Source of the DNA: Myxococcota bacterium
Lineage (GTDB): Bacteria; Myxococcota_A; UBA9160; SZUA-336
Length of the DNA stretch: 48,686 nucleotides
Direction of reading: 5' to 3'
Assembly: GCA_035498015.1 (NCBI GenBank)
Contig: DATKAO010000097.1
Span: forward strand, 1-48,686
Under the pieces are notes generated by a model. The model was not told where the DNA came from. It saw nothing but the letters and a program-made list of their open reading frames with translations, and did no database searches. The translations under genes were made by a program, and so were the position numbers. Shown piece after piece: positions 2,750-13,862 of the stretch; the stretch's first letter is position 1, and every line of letters begins with the position of its first letter.

Positions 2750-3481
2750 GTGAGCCAGACGCCCGAGTCGATCGCACGCGACTTCGACCGCATCGCGGGC
2801 CTGCCCCACGACCCCTGGGACCACAACCGGCTCTACCACGCCGTGCTGCTGCGGGAGCTCCCGGCGCGGACCGGCGAGATACTCGAGATCGGCTGCGGCA
2901 CGGGCGAGCTCACGACGAAGCTCGCGCAGCGTTCGCAGCGCGTGCTGGCGCTCGACCTGTCGCCGGCCATGCTGGCGGCGGCACGGACGCGCTGCGCGGC
3001 GCAGCCGCACGTGGAGCTGCGCCTGGCCGACGCACTCACGTGCGAGCTTCCGCGCGCGGGCTTCGACGTGGTGGCCACGATCGCGACCCTGCACCACCTG
3101 CCGCTCGAGCCCATGTTCGCGCGCGTGCGCGACGCGCTGCGGCCGGGCGGCGTGTTCCTCGCGCTCGACGTGACTCTCGAGCGCTCCGCGGCCGGTGCGC
3201 TCGGGTCCGCCGTCGCTGTTCCGCTGAACCTGCTCGGCAGGCTGCGGGCGACCGGACGCCTGCGTCCGCCGCCCGAGGTGCGCGCGGCCTGGCAGGCGCA
3301 CGTCGCCAGCGACCGGTTTCCGCCGCTGGCCGAGGTGCGCCGCGCCGCAGCGGCGCTCCTGCCGGGCGCGCGCCTGCGCCGGCACCTCTACTGGCGCTAC
3401 TCGCTGGTCTGGCGCAAGCCGGGTCAGTCGGAGATGCCGGCCGCGCGCCGCGCCTTCGCCTTGGCGCGCTCCAGGTCGTAG
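2750..3481 (+). CDS. Class I SAM-dependent methyltransferase
   Basis: A 243-residue cytoplasmic protein with the Rossmann-like methyltransferase fold. Motif I is EILEIGCGTGE (about 43-53), the acidic residue after strand 2 is in LALDLSP, and the later motif DVVATIATLHHLPLEP is present. LRPGGVFLALDVT corresponds to the post-IV strand of Methyltransf_11/25 proteins. The substrate cannot be told from sequence. GTG 2750 is preceded by GGGGAGTGAGGGA, which overlaps the stop of the previous gene. Its last 58 bases overlap the convergent flavoprotein gene. Confidence 0.85.
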   Translation: MSQTPESIARDFDRIAGLPHDPWDHNRLYHAVLLRELPARTGEILEIGCGTGELTTKLAQRSQRVLALDLSPAMLAAARTRCAAQPHVELRLADALTCELPRAGFDVVATIATLHHLPLEPMFARVRDALRPGGVFLALDVTLERSAAGALGSAVAVPLNLLGRLRATGRLRPPPEVRAAWQAHVASDRFPPLAEVRRAAAALLPGARLRRHLYWRYSLVWRKPGQSEMPAARRAFALARSRS

Positions 3482-4833
3482 GTCCGGTTCATCATCACGC
3501 GCTGCGCGGGCAGCCCGCCGCCGGCCTGCAGCGTGGTCACGAGCTGCCAGCCGCCGTAGGCGTCGGCGGTGAGATCGCGGATCAGGTTGTAGATGCGCAT
3601 GCGCGCCTCGACGTCGACGTCGGGCGTGGTGTGGAGATACTTGCGCAGATACTTGCCCGCCTCGGGATGCCGCAGGTCGGCCTCCTTGGGCAGCGTGAGC
3701 ACGAGCCCGCCCCCCAGGTCGTGCAGGCGCTGCACGATCGAGTGGTAGTTCGCCGCGAAGTAGTACTTGCCCACGTTCACGCCCAGCACGTTCGGGTGCA
3801 CCATGCCCGAGGGCGTGGTCTCGTAGTTGCGGCACGCCCAGTCGAGTGACATGCGGATGAGCTGGGCGTAGCAGACCATCTCGGCCACCGCGGCTTGCAC
3901 CTCGTCCTTGCCGCCCTTGCCCTGCTGCTCGGACACGAGCAGCGCCAGACCGACGAGCGTCTCGGCGCGCTCGGCCGCCTCGACCATGCCCAGGGTGCGC
4001 TCCCACAGGCCGAGCGAGCGCGCGAACACGCCCGCGAGCCGGAACTCACCCGCGAGAAACACGCGCTCCCAGGGCACGAACACGTCGTCGAAGATCACGA
4101 AGCCTTCGGGCATGCTGTGGTGCGCGCTCGCGGGATAGTCGAACTCGGACAGCTCGGGCGGCGCGAAGCTGCGGTTGATGATGCGCACGCCCGGCGCGTT
4201 GGCCGGGATCGAGAACGAGACCGCGTAGTCGGCCTCTTCGTGTCTCATCGACTTGGTCGGCATGACCACGAGCTCGTGCACGAGCGACGCGCCGGTGATG
4301 TGCAGCTTCGCGCCGCGCACCGTGATGCCCTTCTCGCTGCGGTCGACGATGCGCAGGTACAGGTCGGGATCGTCCTGCTGGTGCGCGCGGCGGCTGCGGT
4401 CGCCTTTGGCGTCGGTGATGACCTCGGCCGCTCGCAGGTCGTTGTCGCGCGCGTAGCGCCACAGGTTCTCGATGTTCTCGGCGTAGCGCGGATTCACCGC
4501 CGCCACCTCGTCCTTCACGGACTGGAGCGCCATGTACACGCCGGTGACTCCGCCCACGATCGACATCTGACCGGCGAGCTTCACGCGCTGCAGCAAGTCC
4601 TGCTCGCTGCGCGGGATCTGGAACACGCGGTGCGCGCGCGTGCCCTCCTCGGTCTGGTAGGTGGTGAGCTCGCGGCGCGCGGGGTCGTCGTACTCGTAGT
4701 CGCGCGCGGCCACGGCCAGCGGCACGCGGAAGCGCGGGTCCTTCGCGACGTCGTCGATGCGGTCGCCGTCCCAGTACAGGACGCGCCCGTCGCGCAAGCT
4801 CTCGACGTACTCGGCCGGTGTCTTCAGCGCCAT
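3424..4833 (-). CDS. HpaB/AbfD-fold flavoprotein (4-hydroxyphenylacetate 3-hydroxylase family)
   Basis: A 469-residue protein of the family that includes HpaB-type FADH2-dependent hydroxylases and 4-hydroxybutyryl-CoA dehydratase (AbfD). Family landmarks are the N-terminal TPAEYVESLRDGR, a central HITGASLVHELVVMPTKSM segment, and YLRKYLHTTPDVDVEARMR near the C-terminus. AbfD holds a 4Fe-4S cluster with N-terminal cysteines near residues 99-103. Here that region (QMSIVGGVTGVYMALQ) has none and only Cys321 and Cys334 exist in the whole protein, so a dehydratase is unlikely. A reduced-flavin monooxygenase is more plausible. No reductase partner is adjacent. The ATG has GGAGG 6 bases upstream and lies 25 bases after the GNAT gene on the same strand. 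Confidence 0.75.
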   Translation of the reverse strand: MALKTPAEYVESLRDGRVLYWDGDRIDDVAKDPRFRVPLAVAARDYEYDDPARRELTTYQTEEGTRAHRVFQIPRSEQDLLQRVKLAGQMSIVGGVTGVYMALQSVKDEVAAVNPRYAENIENLWRYARDNDLRAAEVITDAKGDRSRRAHQQDDPDLYLRIVDRSEKGITVRGAKLHITGASLVHELVVMPTKSMRHEEADYAVSFSIPANAPGVRIINRSFAPPELSEFDYPASAHHSMPEGFVIFDDVFVPWERVFLAGEFRLAGVFARSLGLWERTLGMVEAAERAETLVGLALLVSEQQGKGGKDEVQAAVAEMVCYAQLIRMSLDWACRNYETTPSGMVHPNVLGVNVGKYYFAANYHSIVQRLHDLGGGLVLTLPKEADLRHPEAGKYLRKYLHTTPDVDVEARMRIYNLIRDLTADAYGGWQLVTTLQAGGGLPAQRVMMNRTYDLERAKAKARRAAGISD

Positions 4834-5944: not shown

Positions 5945-7921
5945 TCAGGGCAGCGCGAACGCCAGCAACGCGTCGCCGGGCTGCGACCAGCCGTGCCCGC
6001 CCGACGCGATCACGACGTACTGCTTGCCGTCGGGACGCAGTCTATACGTCATGGGGGTCGCGTTGGCGGTGTACGGCAGGCGCTGGGTCCAGATCTCGCG
6101 CCCGGTCTTCGCGTCGAAGGCGCGGAAGAACTTGTCGGTGGTGGCGCCGATGAACACCACGCCGCCGGCGGTCGCGAGCGCGCCGCCCAGGTTGGGGGCG
6201 CCCAGATGCAGCCACATCGGCCAGGGCGCCTGGTCGCGCGTGGTGCCCAGCGTCGACTCCCAGAGTGTCTCGCCGCTGGCCAGGTCGATCTTCGAGATCA
6301 CGCCCCAAGGCGGCCGGTTGCAGGGCGCGCCGAGCGGCGAGAGCAGCGGGCTGCGGCGCACGGCGTAGGGCGTGCCCTTCTGCGGATAGAGCTCGTTGGG
6401 GTAGGCCCACTTGCCCGAGTCCTTGATGCGCTCGTACTCGTCGCGCGGGATCAGCTGGATCACCGAGGGCACGCGCATCTGGTTCACGTACATGACCTGC
6501 GCCTCGGGATCGACCACCGCGCCGCCCCAGTTCGGCCCGCCGGCCGGACCGGGAAACTCGATCGAGCCGCGCAGGCTGGGCGGCGTGAAGATGCCGTCGG
6601 AGCGCAGCTGCGCGATCTGGTCGGCGCAGGCGCGCCGATCCCAGCGCGTGAAGCCCCAGGCGTCCTGGGGAGTGAGTCTCTCCGGGTGGATCGGCCGCGG
6701 GTGCGTCGGGAAGGGCTGCGTGGGCGAGAGCGACTCACCGGGCACGTCGGTCGCGGGCACGGGCCGCTCCTCGACCGGGAAGAGTGAGTCGCCGGTGCGC
6801 CGGTCGAGCAGGAACACGTGGCCCATCTTGGTGACCTGGGCGAGCGCCGGCACCACGCCGCGCGGCGTGCGCATGTCGAACAGGATCGGCTGCGCGGGCA
6901 CGTCGTAGTCCCAGACGTCGTGGTGCACGGTCTGGAAGCTCCACGCGACCTCGCCGGTCTCGGCGCGCAGCGCGATCACCGAGCTGGAGTACGCGTCGAG
7001 CCCGTTGCGGTTCGCCGCCCAGTAATCGGGCGCGGCGTTGCCCGTGGGCACGAAGATCAGGCCGAGCGACGGGTCGGCCGACAGGATCGACCACACGTTC
7101 GCGGTGCCGGGCCGGTACTTCGGCGCGCCCGGCGCCGAGGCCGCCGCGAGCGCGCCGGGCGGCACCGGGTCGAAGGCCCACACGAGCTTGCCGGTCACCG
7201 CATCGAAGGCGCGCACCACGCCGCTCGGCGCGTCGCTGCGCAGGTCGTCGGCCACCAGCGCCCCCACCACGACCAGGTCGCCGATCACGAGCGGCGGCGA
7301 GGTCATGTAGTACTCCCAGGGGGCGGCCTCGCCGATGCCCTCGCGCAGCGCCACGCGTCCGCCGCTGCCGAAGTCGGCGCAGGCCTCGCCGCTGCGCGCG
7401 TCGAGCGCGATCAGCTCCGAGTCGATCGTGCCCGTGAACACGCGCGAGTGACACGGCCGGGTGTTGCCCGTGCGGTCGCCCGGCCAGTACGCCACGCCGC
7501 GACACGTTCGCGTGTAGGGCCCTTCGATCTTCCGGAGCTTGGTCTTCGGGTCGAAGGTCCACAGCTCGCGGCCGGTCTCGGGATCGAGCGCGATCACGCG
7601 GTTCTTGCCGGTGCAGAAGTACAGCGAGCCGTCGGCGACGATCGGCGTGGCGTTGAACGAGGTGCGCGTGGTGCCGTCGGAGCCGTCCGACACGTCGCCG
7701 TGGTGGTAGGTCCACGCCACGTGCAGGTCGCGCACGTTCGCGGCCGTGACCTGGGTGAGCGGCGAGAAGCGCAGGCCCCCCTTGGTGCGGCCGTAGTCGG
7801 GCCAATCGTCGGTGGGACCGGAGTAGTCGACCGGCTTCGGCCGCTCGCACGCGGAAGCCAGCGCCAGCGCGAGCGCACACAGGAGACTCGCTGCGGCGCG
7901 CGACGCTCCCCTCCCCGGCAT
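5945..7921 (-). CDS. PQQ-dependent quinoprotein dehydrogenase, predicted lipoprotein
   Basis: A 658-residue protein of the eight-bladed beta-propeller quinoprotein dehydrogenase family (glucose/alcohol dehydrogenase type), which oxidises alcohols or sugars with pyrroloquinoline quinone. Repeated blade motifs are visible: ALDPETGRELWTFD, AFDAVTGKLVWAFD, ALRAETGEVAWSFQ, KIDLASGETLWES and AFDAKTGREIWTQ. The N-terminus has a signal sequence with a lipobox-like LASAC and Cys25, so the enzyme is probably anchored facing the periplasm. It lacks a C-terminal cytochrome; the neighbouring gene carries di-heme motifs and could be an electron acceptor (inference). No PQQ synthesis genes are in the window. 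ATG 7921 has TAGACT exactly 6 bases upstream and no Shine-Dalgarno. Confidence 0.88.
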   Translation of the reverse strand: MPGRGASRAAASLLCALALALASACERPKPVDYSGPTDDWPDYGRTKGGLRFSPLTQVTAANVRDLHVAWTYHHGDVSDGSDGTTRTSFNATPIVADGSLYFCTGKNRVIALDPETGRELWTFDPKTKLRKIEGPYTRTCRGVAYWPGDRTGNTRPCHSRVFTGTIDSELIALDARSGEACADFGSGGRVALREGIGEAAPWEYYMTSPPLVIGDLVVVGALVADDLRSDAPSGVVRAFDAVTGKLVWAFDPVPPGALAAASAPGAPKYRPGTANVWSILSADPSLGLIFVPTGNAAPDYWAANRNGLDAYSSSVIALRAETGEVAWSFQTVHHDVWDYDVPAQPILFDMRTPRGVVPALAQVTKMGHVFLLDRRTGDSLFPVEERPVPATDVPGESLSPTQPFPTHPRPIHPERLTPQDAWGFTRWDRRACADQIAQLRSDGIFTPPSLRGSIEFPGPAGGPNWGGAVVDPEAQVMYVNQMRVPSVIQLIPRDEYERIKDSGKWAYPNELYPQKGTPYAVRRSPLLSPLGAPCNRPPWGVISKIDLASGETLWESTLGTTRDQAPWPMWLHLGAPNLGGALATAGGVVFIGATTDKFFRAFDAKTGREIWTQRLPYTANATPMTYRLRPDGKQYVVIASGGHGWSQPGDALLAFALP

Positions 7922-7927
7922 CGCGCG

Positions 7928-7933
7928 AGTCTA
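7928..7933 (-). promoter_or_regulatory. -10 element of a probable leaderless promoter
   Basis: TAGACT on the minus strand ends exactly 6 bases before ATG 7921, in the 23-base gap between the two PQQ-dehydrogenase genes. The downstream gene may thus be transcribed separately from its neighbour. Confidence 0.45.
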
Positions 7934-7944
7934 TCAGAGCGGAG

Positions 7945-10644
7945 TCACTGCGCGGCGCAGGCGGGTCCTTCGCAGGCCAGCGGGCAGGCGGCGCAGGTCG
8001 GGCCCGGCGGCCGAGCCGACAGGATCTTGAACACGTCGAGGTCGCCCTCGTCGATCGTCCCGGTCCCCGACTCGTCGAGGTCGTAGATCGCGCAGCTCAT
8101 GTCGGCGTGCAGCCCGCAGGTCGAGCCGTCGACGGGCTTTCCGAGCGAGACGCGCAGCGACGCGGTGTCCTTGGCCGAGACGTTCGTCGAGAGGCTCTCG
8201 AACTGGCCGTCGCAGCGGTTGCCGAAGCCGTCGCCGTCGTCGTCGCGCTGGCCGCCGGTCAGCGTGGCCCACGGGTGGGTCGCGCGGAAGTCCGCGTCCA
8301 CACGTGGGTTCGGGATCATCGGGCAGTTGTCGCAGGCGTCGCCCACGCCGTCCTGGTCCCAGTCTTCCTGGCCGGGGTTGGCCACGGTCGGGCAGTTGTC
8401 CTCGAGCACGTCGACGCGGTCGCCGTCGGGGTCGCGTTCGGGCGGAAGCCCGTAGTCGATCCAGGTGGAGACGAGCGACGCGCCCCCGATGTCGGGCATG
8501 AGCGCGAGCCGCGGCATCCACACGTCGGGCTCGCCCGACAGCATGCGCGCCACGAGCACGCTCCGGCTCGACTGGAACGGGTGGATGCGCACGCCGCCGG
8601 GCACGCCGAGGTCACCCTGAGTCGCGGCCACGAACAGCGTGTGGGTGGCGGCGAGCGGCGTGTCGAAGCGCAGGTCCATCCCGCCTGGCGCGGGCGCGCC
8701 CGGCGCGTGACAGCTCGCGCAGTTCACGTCGAGGTAGGTGCGCGCGCGGCGATCGATCGTGACTCCGCGTTCGCCCGGCGGGTTGAAGTGGTCGTAGCTC
8801 TCGCCGGGGCCGATCGGCTGGTCGAACAAGCCCAGGCACGCGAAGCGGTCGAGCTGGTTGGCCCCCGAGCCGTCGCTGCCCTCGCGGTTGAGCTGGCGCG
8901 TGCGCACGCCCAGCGCGCGCCCGCCGGCCTGTGTGTGACACGACGCGCACTCGGACTGCAGCGGGTAGTACCAGTCGATGGTGACCGGCCCGTAGCCCAC
9001 GTCGATCTCGTAGGTGTAGGTGAGTGACCCGGTGATCAGGTAGGCCGCGGTCTGGTCCGGGATCCACCAGTAGGTGTAGCCGCGCCAGCCCGTGGTCTGG
9101 CGCACCGAGATGCGCGTCTCGACGTGGCGTGAGCCGGTCGAGGTGGGCAGGTCGAATTGCTGCACCAACGCCGTGCCGACCGGGAGGTCCCAGTCACCGG
9201 TGGGCGTGAAGCCGATCTGCGAGGTCCCCGGCAGCGCGAGCCAGCGGCGCGTGCTGGCGAAGCTGTTCCAGCCGGGCGCGTTCACCTCGTAGGCCAGCAC
9301 GCCAGGCGCGGCCGAGAGCGAGGCGAAGTCGCTGAACAGCCCCGTGTCGGCCAAGGTCTGGGGCACGTTGGGGTCGAGCTCGCCGCCCGCGGAAGTGACT
9401 CGCAGGAGCTTGCCCGCGCTGCGGTCCACCAGCAGGAGCTCGCCCGCCCGGTCCTCGGCGAAGGCGGCGACGCCCGCGTGACTGGCGATCTGCTTCGGCG
9501 TGCCGCTGGCGACGTCGAGCGCCCAGACGCGGCCGTTCGCGAAGTCGGCGTACAGGTAGTGCCCGTAGAGCTCCGGCATCTGCGCGCCGCGGTAGACCGC
9601 GCCGCCCGTGACGCTCATGCCGCCGCCCGCGCCGTGCGGATAGGCGAGCACGGGCGCAGTGAGTCCCGGCGCCCCGCAGCCCGCGCCGCTGGCGTTGCTG
9701 GTGCCTTCGCACAGCTTCCAGCCGAAGTTCTGCCCGCCCGGCGAGCCGACCGAGATGCGGTCGATCTCCTCCGCGCGCGAGCTGCCCACGTCGCCCAGCC
9801 AGAGGTCGCCGGTGAGGCGGTCGAACGAGAAGCGGCGCGGGTTCTGCAGCCCGTAGGCGAAGATCTCGCCGCGCACCGGGACCATCGAGGCGAACGGGTT
9901 GTCGCCCGGCACCTGGTAGGGCAGCGGGCCGTGCACGTCGATGCGCAACAGCTTGCCCAAGAGGTTGGTCAGCGTCTGGGCGTTGTTCTGCGGGTCACTC
10001 GTGCCCCCGCCGTCGCCGCTCGCGATCCACAGCATGCCGTCGGGGCCGAAGGCGATCTGCCCGGCGCGGTGGTTGGCGAACGGCTGCTCGATCTGCAGCA
10101 CGGTCTGGCCGCTGTCGGGGTCGACCGCCAGCGTGTCTCCGTCGAGCGCGCGGAAGCGCACCACGCGCGTGCAGGCGTGCGCGGTGCCGCACGACTCACT
10201 CGGCAGCGAGTAATTCACGTACAGGTAGCCGTTGCTCGCGAAGTCGGGATCGAACGCGAGCCCGAGCACGCCGTCCTCGCCGCCGACCTGCGCGGCGTCC
10301 CAGCTCGGCCCGGCCGCGGACAAGTCGACCAGCACGTCGCTGCCCATCGCGAACGAGTCGTCGTCGAACACCAGGATCCGGCCGCCCTGCTCGGCGACCG
10401 CGATGCGGTCGAGCTCGCCGGGCACCGGCACCGCCAGCACGGGCATGTCGAACTCGAGGAAGGGGAACGCGTCGACCAGCACGGGCGCGGAGCCATCGAT
10501 CGGGAACGCGTGCCCGGCGAAGGGGACGCGCGTCTCGGGACCGCAGGCCGTCTGCGCGTGCGCGCGCGCGGCGGCAAGCGACGCGCAGGAGAGCGCCAGG
10601 CAGAGTGCAGCCCGGCGCGGGCTGAACGGGATCGAGCGGGTCAT
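7945..10644 (-). CDS. PQQ sugar dehydrogenase / di-heme cytochrome c / TSP3-dockerin-like fusion
   Basis: An 899-residue exported protein (signal peptide ending ARAHAQ). Residues about 40-420 are a six-bladed glucose/sorbosone dehydrogenase (GSDH) domain: LAFDPDFASNGYLYVNYS, FGPDGMLWIASGDGG, FAYGLQNPRRFSFD. Residues about 430-730 hold two CASCH haem c motifs (near 566-570 and 642-646) in a context like the SO2930/HNE_0200 cytochromes. Then come thrombospondin type 3-like repeats rich in DxDxDG (about 735-815) and a dockerin or EF-hand-like segment (DLDESGTGTIDEGDLDVF, about 855-872). Likely role: periplasmic or surface oxidation of a sugar with internal electron transfer to haem. ATG 10644 was chosen over an upstream GTG because it leads straight into the signal peptide. 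Confidence 0.85.
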   Translation of the reverse strand: MTRSIPFSPRRAALCLALSCASLAAARAHAQTACGPETRVPFAGHAFPIDGSAPVLVDAFPFLEFDMPVLAVPVPGELDRIAVAEQGGRILVFDDDSFAMGSDVLVDLSAAGPSWDAAQVGGEDGVLGLAFDPDFASNGYLYVNYSLPSESCGTAHACTRVVRFRALDGDTLAVDPDSGQTVLQIEQPFANHRAGQIAFGPDGMLWIASGDGGGTSDPQNNAQTLTNLLGKLLRIDVHGPLPYQVPGDNPFASMVPVRGEIFAYGLQNPRRFSFDRLTGDLWLGDVGSSRAEEIDRISVGSPGGQNFGWKLCEGTSNASGAGCGAPGLTAPVLAYPHGAGGGMSVTGGAVYRGAQMPELYGHYLYADFANGRVWALDVASGTPKQIASHAGVAAFAEDRAGELLLVDRSAGKLLRVTSAGGELDPNVPQTLADTGLFSDFASLSAAPGVLAYEVNAPGWNSFASTRRWLALPGTSQIGFTPTGDWDLPVGTALVQQFDLPTSTGSRHVETRISVRQTTGWRGYTYWWIPDQTAAYLITGSLTYTYEIDVGYGPVTIDWYYPLQSECASCHTQAGGRALGVRTRQLNREGSDGSGANQLDRFACLGLFDQPIGPGESYDHFNPPGERGVTIDRRARTYLDVNCASCHAPGAPAPGGMDLRFDTPLAATHTLFVAATQGDLGVPGGVRIHPFQSSRSVLVARMLSGEPDVWMPRLALMPDIGGASLVSTWIDYGLPPERDPDGDRVDVLEDNCPTVANPGQEDWDQDGVGDACDNCPMIPNPRVDADFRATHPWATLTGGQRDDDGDGFGNRCDGQFESLSTNVSAKDTASLRVSLGKPVDGSTCGLHADMSCAIYDLDESGTGTIDEGDLDVFKILSARPPGPTCAACPLACEGPACAAQ

Positions 10645-10752
10645 GGGTTGGCTCCCCCAGCCTCCGCATGCCGTTTCGGAGCAACAGCCATGCGCATGAG
10701 TGACCCGGCGCACACAGTGCAACTCCACGCGTGCTTTGCATCACGCAGCGGC

Positions 10753-10771
10753 GGCGGGTCAGAATCCCGCC
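10753..10771. promoter_or_regulatory. Perfect inverted repeat over a putative -10 of the first esterase
   Basis: GGCGGG (10753-10758) and CCCGCC (10766-10771) flank TCAGAAT, which includes CAGAAT, a four-of-six -10 match. It is followed by a 23-base stretch with AGGGAGGAGG before ATG 10794. The repeat could be an operator, or a hairpin in the leader if transcription starts further up. The 149-base divergent spacer has no other strong signal. Confidence 0.3.
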
Positions 10772-10793
10772 CGCAGGGAGGAGGCATCCCACG

Positions 10794-12335
10794 ATGACGA
10801 TCGCCAGCACGAGGCAGGGCCGGGTCCAGGGCGAAGCGCGCGACGGTCTCTCGATCTTCCGCGGCATTCCCTTTGCCGCGCCGCCGGTGGGCGCGCTGCG
10901 CTGGCGCGCGCCGGAGCCCGCGGCGCCGTGGTCGGGCGTGCGCGACTGCACGGCGTTCGGCGCGTGCGCCCCGCAGAACGTGGTTGCGCTCGACATGCTC
11001 GAGGCGTTCAAGATCCTCGAGCCGCAGAGCGAGGACTGCCTGTTCCTGAACGTGTGGACGCCCGGCGTCGACGCGCGCCGGCGGCCCGTGATGGTGTGGA
11101 TCCACGGTGGCGCGTTCACGATCGGCTCGGGCGCGCAGTCGATCTACGACGGCGCGCCGCTGGCCAAACGCGGCGACGTGGTGGTCGTGACCGTGAACTA
11201 CCGGCTCGGGCCGCTGGGCTTCCTGCGACTCACCGAGCTCACCGGCGGGCGCATTCCCGCGACCGGCAACGAGGGCATGCTCGATCAGCTGGCCGCGCTC
11301 GAGTGGGTGCGCGACAACATCGCGGCGTTCGGCGGCGATCCCGAGAACGTGACCATCTTCGGCGAGTCTGCCGGCGGCATGAGCGTGGGCACGCTGCTCG
11401 GCCTGCCGCGCGCGCGCGGCCTGTTCCACAAGGCGATCCCGCAGAGCGGCGCGTGCAGCACCGCGGCCACGCGCGACGCCGCGAACTTCGTGGCGGAGCG
11501 CTACCTGTCGCATCTCGGTGTCGGCAGCGATCCCGAGTCACTCCGCAAGGTGACTGCTGCGCAGCTGCTCGCGGCCAGCGCGGCGCTAGCGGGCCCGCCC
11601 GGCACGCCCAACGAGGAGGTCGGCGGCCTGCCGTTCCAGCCCGTGGTCGACGGCGAGATCCAGCCGCGGCGCGCGATCGACTCGGTCGCAGGCGGCTCGG
11701 CGGCCGGCGTACCGCTCCTGGTGGGCACCACGCTCGAAGAGTGGAAGCTCTTCCTGCCCGCCGACCCCACGAACTTCGGGCTGAGCGACGCGCAGCTCGC
11801 GCGCCGTTGTGACCGCCGGCTCGGCGCGGCCGGGCGCGGCGTGGTCGAGACCTACCAGAAGGCGCGCAGCGAGCGCGGCCAGCCCGCGACGCCGCAGGAG
11901 CTGTGGGGCGCGATCGAGACCGACCGCATCTTCCGCATGCCCGCGCTGAAGCTCGCCGAGTCCCAGGCGCGGCACGAGCCGCGCGTCTTCAACTACCTGT
12001 TCACCTGGTCCTCGCCGATGCTGGGCGGAATGCTCGGCTCCTGCCACGCGCTCGAGCTCGGCTTCGTGTTCGGTACGCACCGCAACCCCGGCGTGTCGGA
12101 CTTCTCGGGCACGGGCCCGCAGGCAGACGCCCTCTCCGAGCACATGATGGACGCGTGGCTCGCCTTCGCGCGCACCGGCGACCCGTCGACCGCGTCGGCG
12201 GGCGCGTTCCCGCGCTACGGAGCCGAGCGGCACACGCGCATCTTCGGCGCCGAAACCAAGAACGCCGCCGCACCGTACGACGAGGAGCGCCGCGCCTGGG
12301 AGCGCGTCGCCGATGCGGCGATCGGGGCGCCCTGA
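10794..12335 (+). CDS. Type-B carboxylesterase (first of tandem pair)
   Basis: A 513-residue alpha/beta hydrolase of the carboxylesterase type B family, which hydrolyses ester bonds of xenobiotics or lipids. The oxyanion segment is VWIHGGAFTIGSG (about 101-113), the nucleophile elbow is GESAGG with Ser192, and the acid is probably the Glu in TTLEEWK. The histidine lies in GSCHALELGFVFGT, the family's usual context. No signal peptide, so it is probably cytoplasmic. ATG 10794 has a strong AGGGAGGAGG about 10 bases upstream. The next gene encodes a close relative 27 bases downstream. It is divergent from the PQQ/cytochrome fusion gene. Confidence 0.92.
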   Translation: MTIASTRQGRVQGEARDGLSIFRGIPFAAPPVGALRWRAPEPAAPWSGVRDCTAFGACAPQNVVALDMLEAFKILEPQSEDCLFLNVWTPGVDARRRPVMVWIHGGAFTIGSGAQSIYDGAPLAKRGDVVVVTVNYRLGPLGFLRLTELTGGRIPATGNEGMLDQLAALEWVRDNIAAFGGDPENVTIFGESAGGMSVGTLLGLPRARGLFHKAIPQSGACSTAATRDAANFVAERYLSHLGVGSDPESLRKVTAAQLLAASAALAGPPGTPNEEVGGLPFQPVVDGEIQPRRAIDSVAGGSAAGVPLLVGTTLEEWKLFLPADPTNFGLSDAQLARRCDRRLGAAGRGVVETYQKARSERGQPATPQELWGAIETDRIFRMPALKLAESQARHEPRVFNYLFTWSSPMLGGMLGSCHALELGFVFGTHRNPGVSDFSGTGPQADALSEHMMDAWLAFARTGDPSTASAGAFPRYGAERHTRIFGAETKNAAAPYDEERRAWERVADAAIGAP

Positions 12336-12362
12336 GCGCGGAGTGACTGGCGGAGGTTGGCC

Positions 12363-13862
12363 ATGGGCGTAGTCGTCGACACGGTCTCGGGAAAGCTAAA
12401 GGGCGAGCGGCGGGGCGGGCACGAGCGCTTCCTCGGCATTCCGTTCGCCGCGGCGCCGGTGGGCGAGCGGCGCTGGCGCGCGCCGCAGCCCGCGCCGCTG
12501 TGGTCGCGCACGCGGCCGGCGCTCGCGTTCGGCGCGTCGGCGCCCCAGCCGCCCAGCGCGCTCCCGGGTATGGCCGTCGGCCCGCAGGACGAAGACTGCC
12601 TGTATCTCAACGTGTTCACGCCGCGCGCGGACGGCGCGCGCCGGCCCGTGCTGTTCTGGATCCACGGCGGCGGCTTCACCACCGGCGGGGCTGCGCAGGC
12701 CATGTACGACGGCGGCCGGCTCGCCGAGCGCGGCGACGTGGTGGTCGTGACCATCAACTACCGGCTCGGGTCGTTGGGCTATCTGCACCTGCCGGGCTGC
12801 GACGCCAACCTGGGCCAGCTCGACCAGATCGCGGCGCTGGAATGGACGCGCGACAACATCCGCGCGTTCGGCGGCGACCCCGACCAGGTCACGATCTTCG
12901 GCGAGAGCGCCGGCGGCATGGCCGTCGCGACCCTGCTCGGCATGCCGGGCGCACGCGGCTTGTTCCGGGGCGCGATCGCGCAGAGCGGCGCCGCGCAGAA
13001 CGTGCACACGCGCGCGAGCGCGGCCGAAGTCACTGCCGCGGTGCTGGCCGAGCTCGGCCAGTCGGTGCCGGAGCTCGCCAAGCTGCGCGAGCTGCCCGTG
13101 AGCGCGCTGATCGAGGCGCAGAAGAAGGTGACTGCGGCGCGGCGCGCCGAGCTCGAGCTCGCGTTCTGCCCCACGGTCGACCCGGCCACGCTGCCCAAGC
13201 CACCGCTCGACGCCGTGCGCGAGGGCGCCGCGTCCGGAGTGGCGCTCCTGGTCGGCAGCAACCGCGACGAGATCAAGCTGTTCCGATTGGGCGTCGCCGA
13301 GTCGGCCAGCCTGTCGCCCGAGTCACTCTTGAAGCGGGTGCGCGGCACGCTGGGCGCGGTGCGCGCCGACCCGGCGCGGGCCGAAGCGCTGGTCGACACC
13401 TACCGCGCGGCGCGCGCAGGCCGCGCCTCCGTGGAGCCGGGCGAGCTCCTCGACGCGATCCAGTCCGACCGCACCTTCCGCATTCCGGCGATCCGGCTGG
13501 CCGAGGCGCAGCGGCGCAACGAGGCGCGCACCTACATGTACTTCTTCACCTGGGAGTCACCGGCGCGGCGGGGCACGCTCGGCGCGTGTCACGCTCTCGA
13601 GCTGCCCTTCGTGTTCGGCACGCTCGACGCCCCGACCATGGACCGCTTCGCGGGCAAAGGCCCGGAGGCCGACGCGCTGTCGGCGCAGATGATGGACGCC
13701 TGGATCGCCTTCGCCCGCGCCGGCGAGCCGACACACGGTGGTGTCTCCCACTGGCCGGCCTACGATACGCGCACACGGGCGACGCTCGTGTTCGATCGCG
13801 AATGTCAGCTGGTCCACGCGCCGCTCGACGCAGAGCGCGCCGCGTGGGAAGGGATTCTCTAG
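12363..13862 (+). CDS. Type-B carboxylesterase (second of tandem pair)
   Basis: A 499-residue paralogue of the preceding esterase. It has FWIHGGGFTTGG (about 99-109), GESAGG with Ser182, VGSNRDEIKLF holding the probable acidic residue, and GACHALELPFVFGT with the catalytic His. Long stretches match its neighbour in order, for example RAFGGDP and MMDAWIAFARAGEPT, so a local duplication followed by divergence is likely. ATG 12363 has GGAGG 6 bases upstream; a TTG six bases earlier overlaps that signal and is less likely. The 191 bases after it, before the sigma factor gene, contain no recognisable gene. Confidence 0.92.
   Translation: MGVVVDTVSGKLKGERRGGHERFLGIPFAAAPVGERRWRAPQPAPLWSRTRPALAFGASAPQPPSALPGMAVGPQDEDCLYLNVFTPRADGARRPVLFWIHGGGFTTGGAAQAMYDGGRLAERGDVVVVTINYRLGSLGYLHLPGCDANLGQLDQIAALEWTRDNIRAFGGDPDQVTIFGESAGGMAVATLLGMPGARGLFRGAIAQSGAAQNVHTRASAAEVTAAVLAELGQSVPELAKLRELPVSALIEAQKKVTAARRAELELAFCPTVDPATLPKPPLDAVREGAASGVALLVGSNRDEIKLFRLGVAESASLSPESLLKRVRGTLGAVRADPARAEALVDTYRAARAGRASVEPGELLDAIQSDRTFRIPAIRLAEAQRRNEARTYMYFFTWESPARRGTLGACHALELPFVFGTLDAPTMDRFAGKGPEADALSAQMMDAWIAFARAGEPTHGGVSHWPAYDTRTRATLVFDRECQLVHAPLDAERAAWEGIL

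Follow-up and report, generated by a model that had tools for sequence, protein, structure and literature searches.

Can one exported polypeptide oxidise a substrate and pass the electrons on through haems of its own, and does the family name of its propeller tell us which cofactor it would use? These questions are raised by P0001, an open reading frame (ORF) on the minus strand of a 48,686-nucleotide stretch of the draft genome of a Myxococcota bacterium (NCBI GenBank assembly GCA_035498015.1, contig DATKAO010000097.1, positions 1 to 48,686; this whole stretch is referred to as the window). Judged from its sequence, P0001 combines a propeller of the GSDH fold, a two-haem domain of the SO2930 type, TSP3 repeats and a shared C-terminal module, many carriers of which have a signal-like start; the signal of P0001 was recognised by eye. 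We favour, with a probability of about 0.6, the reading that P0001 is an exported electron-transfer protein. In members of its family the propeller would be where a small organic compound is oxidised, the cofactor would sit in a pocket unlike those of sGDH and Escherichia coli Asd, and the electrons would leave through both haems of that chain for a partner beyond the inner membrane. P0001 itself may be mainly a surface haem protein, or may act on a different substrate, and its tail probably fixes its location rather than its chemistry. The features of P0001 are as follows.

7945..10644 (-): whole ORF P0001, 899 amino acids (aa) (ORF translation)
10555..10644 (-): Sec-type signal peptide, residues 1-30, AHA cleavage (by eye, and hydropathy 1.43)
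9499..10407 (-): GSDH-family six-bladed propeller, residues 80-382 (Pfam; fold match about 52-423)
10069..10071 (-): His192, equivalent to catalytic His144 of sGDH, kept (propeller alignment)
9841..9846 (-): Gln267-Asn268, equivalent to Arg228-Asn229 of sGDH, Arg replaced (propeller alignment)
8455..9363 (-): SO2930/TIGR03806-like dihaem cytochrome c domain, residues 428-730 (NCBIfam)
8935..8949 (-): haem c site 1, CASCH, residues 566-570 (sequence)
8707..8721 (-): haem c site 2, CASCH, residues 642-646 (sequence)
8305..8433 (-): TSP3 repeat region, residues 738-780 (Pfam TSP_3; PDB thrombospondin/COMP matches)
7948..8334 (-): tail module A, residues 771-899, two EF-hand-like halves, conserved cysteines (profile searches)

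A propeller and a dihaem cytochrome in one exported chain

A first-pass annotation of the window had described a single exported chain holding a pyrroloquinoline quinone (PQQ) sugar dehydrogenase, two haem c sites, TSP3 repeats and a dockerin-like end. The domain searches it had proposed bear out the single chain: models for GSDH, the SO2930 cytochrome and TSP3 all match, and the dockerin model does not. Pfam GSDH (PF07995) scores 132.6 bits against a cut-off of 25, and the NCBIfam model TIGR03806 ("SO2930 family diheme c-type cytochrome") is matched at E 1.1e-58 over positions 2-312 of its 314. The latter score, 198.9 bits, lies below the curated cut-off of 313.3; the domain is homologous nonetheless, and the only two CxxCH motifs of P0001 both fall within it. 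Export is supported by the Sec-type signal, read by eye with cleavage after AHA at residue 30 and a top 19-aa hydropathy of 1.43. An alternative GTG start at 10728 is also in frame, and we took the ATG at 10644 because it yields a normal Sec signal. An AlphaFold2 model built from 59 sequences (mean predicted local distance difference test, pLDDT, 80.3) has high values over the propeller and most of the cytochrome part, and values mostly below 50 over the tail. In the structure search, the SO2930 part yielded no fold, the matches listed all being to the propeller. The Shewanella protein SO_2930 is listed as outer-membrane or extracellular (PMC4837345).

The joining of GSDH to SO2930 is genuine, common and found in several phyla. 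The genome that holds P0001 encodes three such fusions, on contigs C97, C137 and C148. SO2930 matches (E≤0.001) occur in 21/59 relatives and in 231/377 phylum genomes, own genome included, and an earlier locus set had GSDH in the same ORF for 21/58 SO2930 rows, some genes, including the three own ones, being counted twice there. The survey of architectures that the first-pass annotation had proposed took the SO2930 domains of twelve fusions as queries against named genomes. In the best 80 loci, out of at least 586 stretches (548 relatives), GSDH stands in frame in 71 of the 81 SO2930 ORFs, a proportion that is no frequency estimate, since the sample was seeded with fusions and both hidden Markov models were built from the three own paralogues. 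Hosts of fused ORFs include Planctomycetota, Verrucomicrobiota, Gammaproteobacteria, other Pseudomonadota, a Bdellovibrionales metagenome-assembled genome (MAG) and Myxococcota, and among them are the isolates Peristeroidobacter agariperforans, Steroidobacter agaridevorans and Paraliomyxa miuraensis. A literature search by name turned up no description of a GSDH-SO2930 fusion, though it pointed to the Teredinibacter and Cellvibrio proteins discussed below.

In a tree of 75 rows, P0001 falls within a group of ten (Myxococcota, its own class and the MAG TMED88) with a support of 99 by the Shimodaira-Hasegawa-like approximate likelihood ratio test, and its end branch is 0.82 long (median 0.35). 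At locus L098 (3726-7169), the fusion is followed directly by a second GSDH ORF. Most TIGR03806 rows over the cut-off in the phylum table are ORFs shorter than 560 aa, and the long over-cut-off ORFs examined gave no GSDH match. A different fusion occurs at L017, L019-L022, L045-L047, L050, L055 and L060, where the N-terminal part that precedes SO2930 is a different one, about 450 aa long or more, and gives no GSDH match.

A putative cofactor pocket that departs from those of solved enzymes

The propeller has a fold that solved dehydrogenases share with HHIP. The best sequence match in the PDB is HHIP (E 7e-26), which also has the best Foldseek E-value. The AlphaFold2 propeller superposes on E. 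coli Asd/YliI (2g8s_B; Z 39.3, root mean square deviation [rmsd] 2.5, 333 residues aligned), HHIP (7pgm_A; Z 38.2, rmsd 2.3, 327 aligned), Acinetobacter sGDH (1c9u_A; Z 37.5, rmsd 2.6, 333 aligned) and the Pyrobaculum protein 3A9G (Z 39.7). Over all aldose dehydrogenases, sGDH and HHIP, Z is 34.9-39.9; AA12 structures score lower (Z 30.9-32.6).

To compare the PQQ site, we aligned the propellers of 68 fused ORFs (the 71 less three that are truncated) with those of P0001, both own paralogues and E. coli Asd. The equivalent of sGDH His144 is His in 70/70 relatives and is kept as His192 in P0001; that of Arg228 is Arg in 69/70 and Lys in one, and is Gln267 in P0001; that of Asn229 is Asn in 62/70 and Ser in eight, and is kept as Asn268. 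Such conservation indicates that selection acts on the site across the family. Arg228 of sGDH activates a carbonyl of PQQ (PMC6881810), and it is this residue that P0001 replaces. The glycine of the calcium loop is retained.

A second departure is common to all the fusions aligned. Four solved Asd-type proteins (2g8s, 7cdy, 2ism and 3a9g) carry an R-x-R motif near the end of the propeller, in a survey where the alignment of 3das ends short of the motif and sGDH itself lies outside the comparison. We take the motif to be Arg406/Arg408 of sGDH. At the aligned place it is absent from all 71 fusions and present in one of 72 rows, the E. coli control. The family is named for glucose/sorbosone dehydrogenase, yet its 71 aligned fusions lack a motif of four solved Asd-type proteins, and the PQQ label on such fusions therefore merits a direct test. 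Lys377 of sGDH was dropped as a marker of the PQQ site, since solved Asd-type proteins vary there too.

P0001 has diverged further. Among 105 near-invariant columns, counted over P0001 and 58 of the 68 listed fusions, it differs at 11 (median 2), which ties it for third of 59. Arg267 and Lys495 are among the positions lost, as are Ser460, Asp461 and Lys465 in the PLWSDxAxK motif of the haem domain. Both own-genome paralogues keep the PLWSDxAxK motif. Because the catalytic Arg is Gln and PLWSDxAxK has decayed, PQQ sugar oxidation by P0001 seems doubtful. PQQ chemistry is unproven for this protein and the label weak: of the "PQQ sugar dehydrogenase" first proposed, the GSDH propeller stands and PQQ catalysis is not supported.

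A shared C-terminal module

The newest part of P0001 is its end. Pfam TSP_3 (PF02412) scores 27.9 bits against a cut-off of 25, and PDB thrombospondin and COMP sequences match the same region. The last ~125 residues, which we call tail A, comprise the end of TSP3, two EF-hand-like halves and a Cys-rich tip, with nine cysteine columns at least 85% conserved. Tail A occurs at nine places of the own genome (E≤0.01), ending eight further ORFs there, six of them FG-GAP proteins. It was found in 4/90 class genomes, own included (E≤1e-6), with 54 places in G015, a genome of another family; a profile of 23 copies found it in 6/377 phylum genomes, own included (E≤1e-10), the counts within genomes in that search being lower bounds. 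Carriers are window 7948-8334 (-), L072-L092 and L209-L228, and G000, G001, G009 and G015 are among the genomes that have the module. The position is terminal: in 21 of 22 ORFs of the fetched stretches, the eight other own-genome carriers among them, tail A ends 0-14 residues before the stop, L228 (378 residues before) being the exception; in 23 matches that overlap these 22, the distance to the stop is at most 26 residues for 21 and is 157 and 378 for the other two. A crude hydrophobicity score reaches at least 2.0 near a possible start in 14/22 ORFs, and three of the eight below that value are truncated where the fetched stretch ends.

The "dockerin-like" look of the P0001 end is explained by the two EF-hand-like halves of this shared module. 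Their spacing, by eye, is one residue over canonical in most copies, and the first half is degenerate in P0001. No Pfam dockerin was found in P0001 at E≤1, or in its tail and five others at E≤0.1; the paralogue on C148 has a sub-threshold match (E 0.05). Cohesin PF00963 has a match in 0/4 genomes at E≤0.01, drafts that may be incomplete. A cellulosomal dockerin was rejected, the model giving no match and cohesin not being found in those drafts. On the six tails TSP_3 is the sole Pfam match, and NCBIfam gives sub-cut-off matches to the TSP3-bearing models MtsC, Omp28-related and TraB, one of which reaches the first half of the tail. We also ruled out a MYXO-CTERM tag: the highest 19-aa hydropathy of the tail is 0.69, which leaves no membrane helix, and the end reads CAAQ and is not Arg-rich. 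A single-sequence model of the tail (pLDDT 39) is meaningless.

Both own paralogues end in another module, tail B. Seen at the C termini of L001, L004 and L038 (alignment A5), tail B is dockerin-like and has a conserved Cys near its C terminus; at E≤1e-5 it matches 16 times in the own genome and 32 times in G010, and not at all in G015. The G015 fusion L023 carries tail A and lies in another part of the tree from P0001, which suggests that tail A became attached to GSDH-SO2930 fusions more than once. We read tail A as a location tag, and surface display of P0001 is plausible. A limited literature search turned up no description of tail A. As a candidate module for sorting to the surface, possibly a new one, it is open to experiment. 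Our tentative proposal, which we would not yet call probable, is that one bacterial class has in tail A a C-terminal localisation module not described before (TSP3, duplicated EF-hand-like halves and a Cys-rich tip), that a single genome may attach it to as many as dozens of exported proteins, and that through it a dihaem propeller protein whose cofactor pocket is non-standard comes to lie on the surface near an MtrA/MtrB conduit.

Genomic setting and electron-transfer genes

That P0001 adjoins a second enzyme of PQQ type, as the first-pass annotation had it, is confirmed by domain match.

5945..7921 (-): neighbour PQQ-type dehydrogenase, lipobox-like LASAC (Pfam/NCBIfam; LASAC by eye)

This gene (PF01011, 797.6 bits; TIGR03074, 749.2 bits, under the cut-off of 832.65) starts 23 bp downstream of P0001 on the same strand and may share its transcript; its product presumably has an 8-bladed fold. 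A conserved operon was rejected: of 80 loci whose flanks were compared (up to 5 kb, some of them shorter), only two, L139 and L155, have a homologue of the neighbour there at E≤1e-10. A scan of window 7700-10900 for promoters and terminators found nothing. Elsewhere in the window are two adjoining carboxylesterases (10797-12335 and 12357-13862, +), divergent from the fusion gene, and an HpaB-like hydroxylase (3424-4833, -).

Genes for PQQ synthesis had been said to lie far away. PqqE, the only one at which the search was aimed, is over its cut-off on another contig of the draft genome. The cytochrome c assembly family has three matches in the genome. An MtrB porin over its cut-off lies directly beside a ten-CxxCH cytochrome of the DmsE/MtrA family, also over its cut-off; with a three-CxxCH ORF they make up L233:7474-11980 (G000, contig C196), likely an outer-membrane electron conduit by its gene content. 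A second MtrB/PioB-like porin (L234:1-2403, G000, contig C175) scores 233.5 bits, just below the NCBIfam cut-off of 240.05, and its 11.6-kb contig holds no CxxCH ORF of at least 120 aa. With PqqE, proteins for cytochrome c assembly and a conduit of the MtrA/MtrB type all encoded, the extracellular respiratory route envisaged for P0001 is possible; nothing links the conduit to P0001.

Weighing the readings

The probabilities that we attach to the favoured reading and to its rivals overlap and do not sum to one. P0001 could be a catalytically dead paralogue in which, as in HHIP, the propeller serves to bind a ligand or a partner, leaving the haem domain alone redox active. HHIP being its best sequence match among solved structures speaks for this, as do the change of Arg to Gln and the decayed PLWSDxAxK, where the two own-genome paralogues keep both the Arg and the motif; the retained His192, Asn268 and calcium-loop Gly speak against it, and the fold fits Asd enzymes about as well as HHIP. 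We consider it unlikely, while a real possibility. The same kept His and Asn would suit the opposite idea, a fully active PQQ sugar dehydrogenase that sends electrons via its own haems to the MtrA/MtrB conduit or another surface acceptor and so acts as an extracellular respiratory enzyme. PqqE and the cytochrome assembly proteins are encoded, and MtrB lies over its cut-off next to a decahaem cytochrome; but Arg228 has become Gln, R-x-R is missing, and the conduit genes are on another contig with nothing to tie them to P0001. In addition, the pf08450-X173 pair of TERTU_2913 and TERTU_3803, whose similarity to PQQ glucose/sorbosone dehydrogenases is distant, showed neither PQQ binding nor glucose activity (PMC10916295), and we think an active sugar dehydrogenase improbable. 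More improbable still is an electron donor to extracellular copper monooxygenases (LPMOs) or another polysaccharide-oxidising system, comparable to fungal CcPDH and the role proposed for Cbp2D/Cbp2E. Proteins with GSDH and cytochrome c domains and cellulose-binding modules do occur in the Teredinibacter cellulose secretome (PMC12055684), and a c-type domain of Cbp2D, when isolated, can start LPMO copper reduction (PMC12542752); P0001 has no carbohydrate-binding module match in Pfam, and the latter source reports no definitive function identified for Cbp2D/Cbp2E themselves (PMC12542752). Two genes joined by a sequencing or assembly error would have the draft state of the genome in their favour and nothing else, and two more fusions in the same genome, with in-frame fusions in several phyla, exclude this for practical purposes.

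Several observations weigh against the exported electron-transfer protein that we favour. Its substrate, cofactor and location are all predicted. Missing PQQ anchors are no proof of inactivity or of PQQ loss, because the fungal enzyme CcSDH/CcPDH misses several and is active and PQQ-dependent; HHIP, too, lacks PQQ residues (PMC4133262). Decay is not unique to P0001, because L139, L142 and L162 differ at 14, 13 and 11 near-invariant columns, and none of the end branches was marked as long by the tree program. One of the differences counted for P0001, M709W, is probably a one-column misalignment, Met710 being adjacent. Finally, Gln267 is a single codon of a draft genome, and no orthologue is available for comparison, since G001, a genome of the same genus, lacks any SO2930 match.

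Comparison with known systems

With the TIGR03806 SO2930 family, P0001 shares two CxxCH motifs and nearly the full span of the model; it differs in its sub-cut-off score and in the propeller fused in front. Soluble aldose sugar dehydrogenases (2G8S, 3A9G, 1C9U) have the same six-bladed GSDH fold (rmsd 2.3-2.6, 322-333 aligned) and the same catalytic His and Asn, whereas P0001 lacks R-x-R, has Gln for Arg228 and adds a haem domain and tail. HHIP is the closest solved match by sequence, but its VIA-align Z is about equal to that of Asd. It is an animal ligand-binding protein that is not known to carry this haem domain.

The joining of a propeller to a cytochrome is already in print, for Teredinibacter (PMC12055684) and, with other domains, for CcPDH. 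The Coprinopsis enzyme, an AA12 quinohaemoprotein, has a PQQ propeller and a cytochrome on a single chain as P0001 would (PMC6881789); unlike P0001, it has an N-terminal cytochrome b domain, a cellulose-binding module (PMC4133262) and probably other PQQ residues, and 6jt5 superposes on the P0001 propeller with Z 30.9 (rmsd 2.8, 306 aligned, 12% identity). Teredinibacter TERTU_3803 and TERTU_2567 are described with GSDH and cytochrome c domains (PMC12055684). Together with TERTU_2913 and Cellvibrio Cbp2D/Cbp2E, they resemble P0001 as extracellular bacterial multi-domain redox proteins, a likeness to its propeller and SO2930 part that is one of description, and they carry carbohydrate-binding and other X domains where P0001 has TSP3 and tail A. 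The closest matches of the pf08450-X173 pair are annotated as PQQ glucose/sorbosone dehydrogenases, a similarity that the paper calls distant; the pair of TERTU_2913/TERTU_3803 showed no PQQ binding by isothermal titration calorimetry and no glucose dehydrogenase activity (PMC10916295), which offers an analogy for the subgroup of P0001.

Tail A, too, has parallels. PEP-CTERM, a sorting tag, resembles tail A in being a C-terminal module that recurs on many exported proteins within one genome. MYXO-CTERM is likewise a C-terminal module on many exported proteins per genome and consists of a short Cys motif, a transmembrane helix and an Arg-rich end (PMC11980579), whereas tail A is ~125 aa long, with a Cys-rich end and no such helix. 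In an engineered fusion of Pyrobaculum Asd to cytochrome b562, electrons move from PQQ to haem (PMC12011955); if the GSDH-SO2930 fusions do oxidise sugars, they would be natural direct-electron-transfer enzymes of the kind that biosensor groups engineer (PMC12011955).

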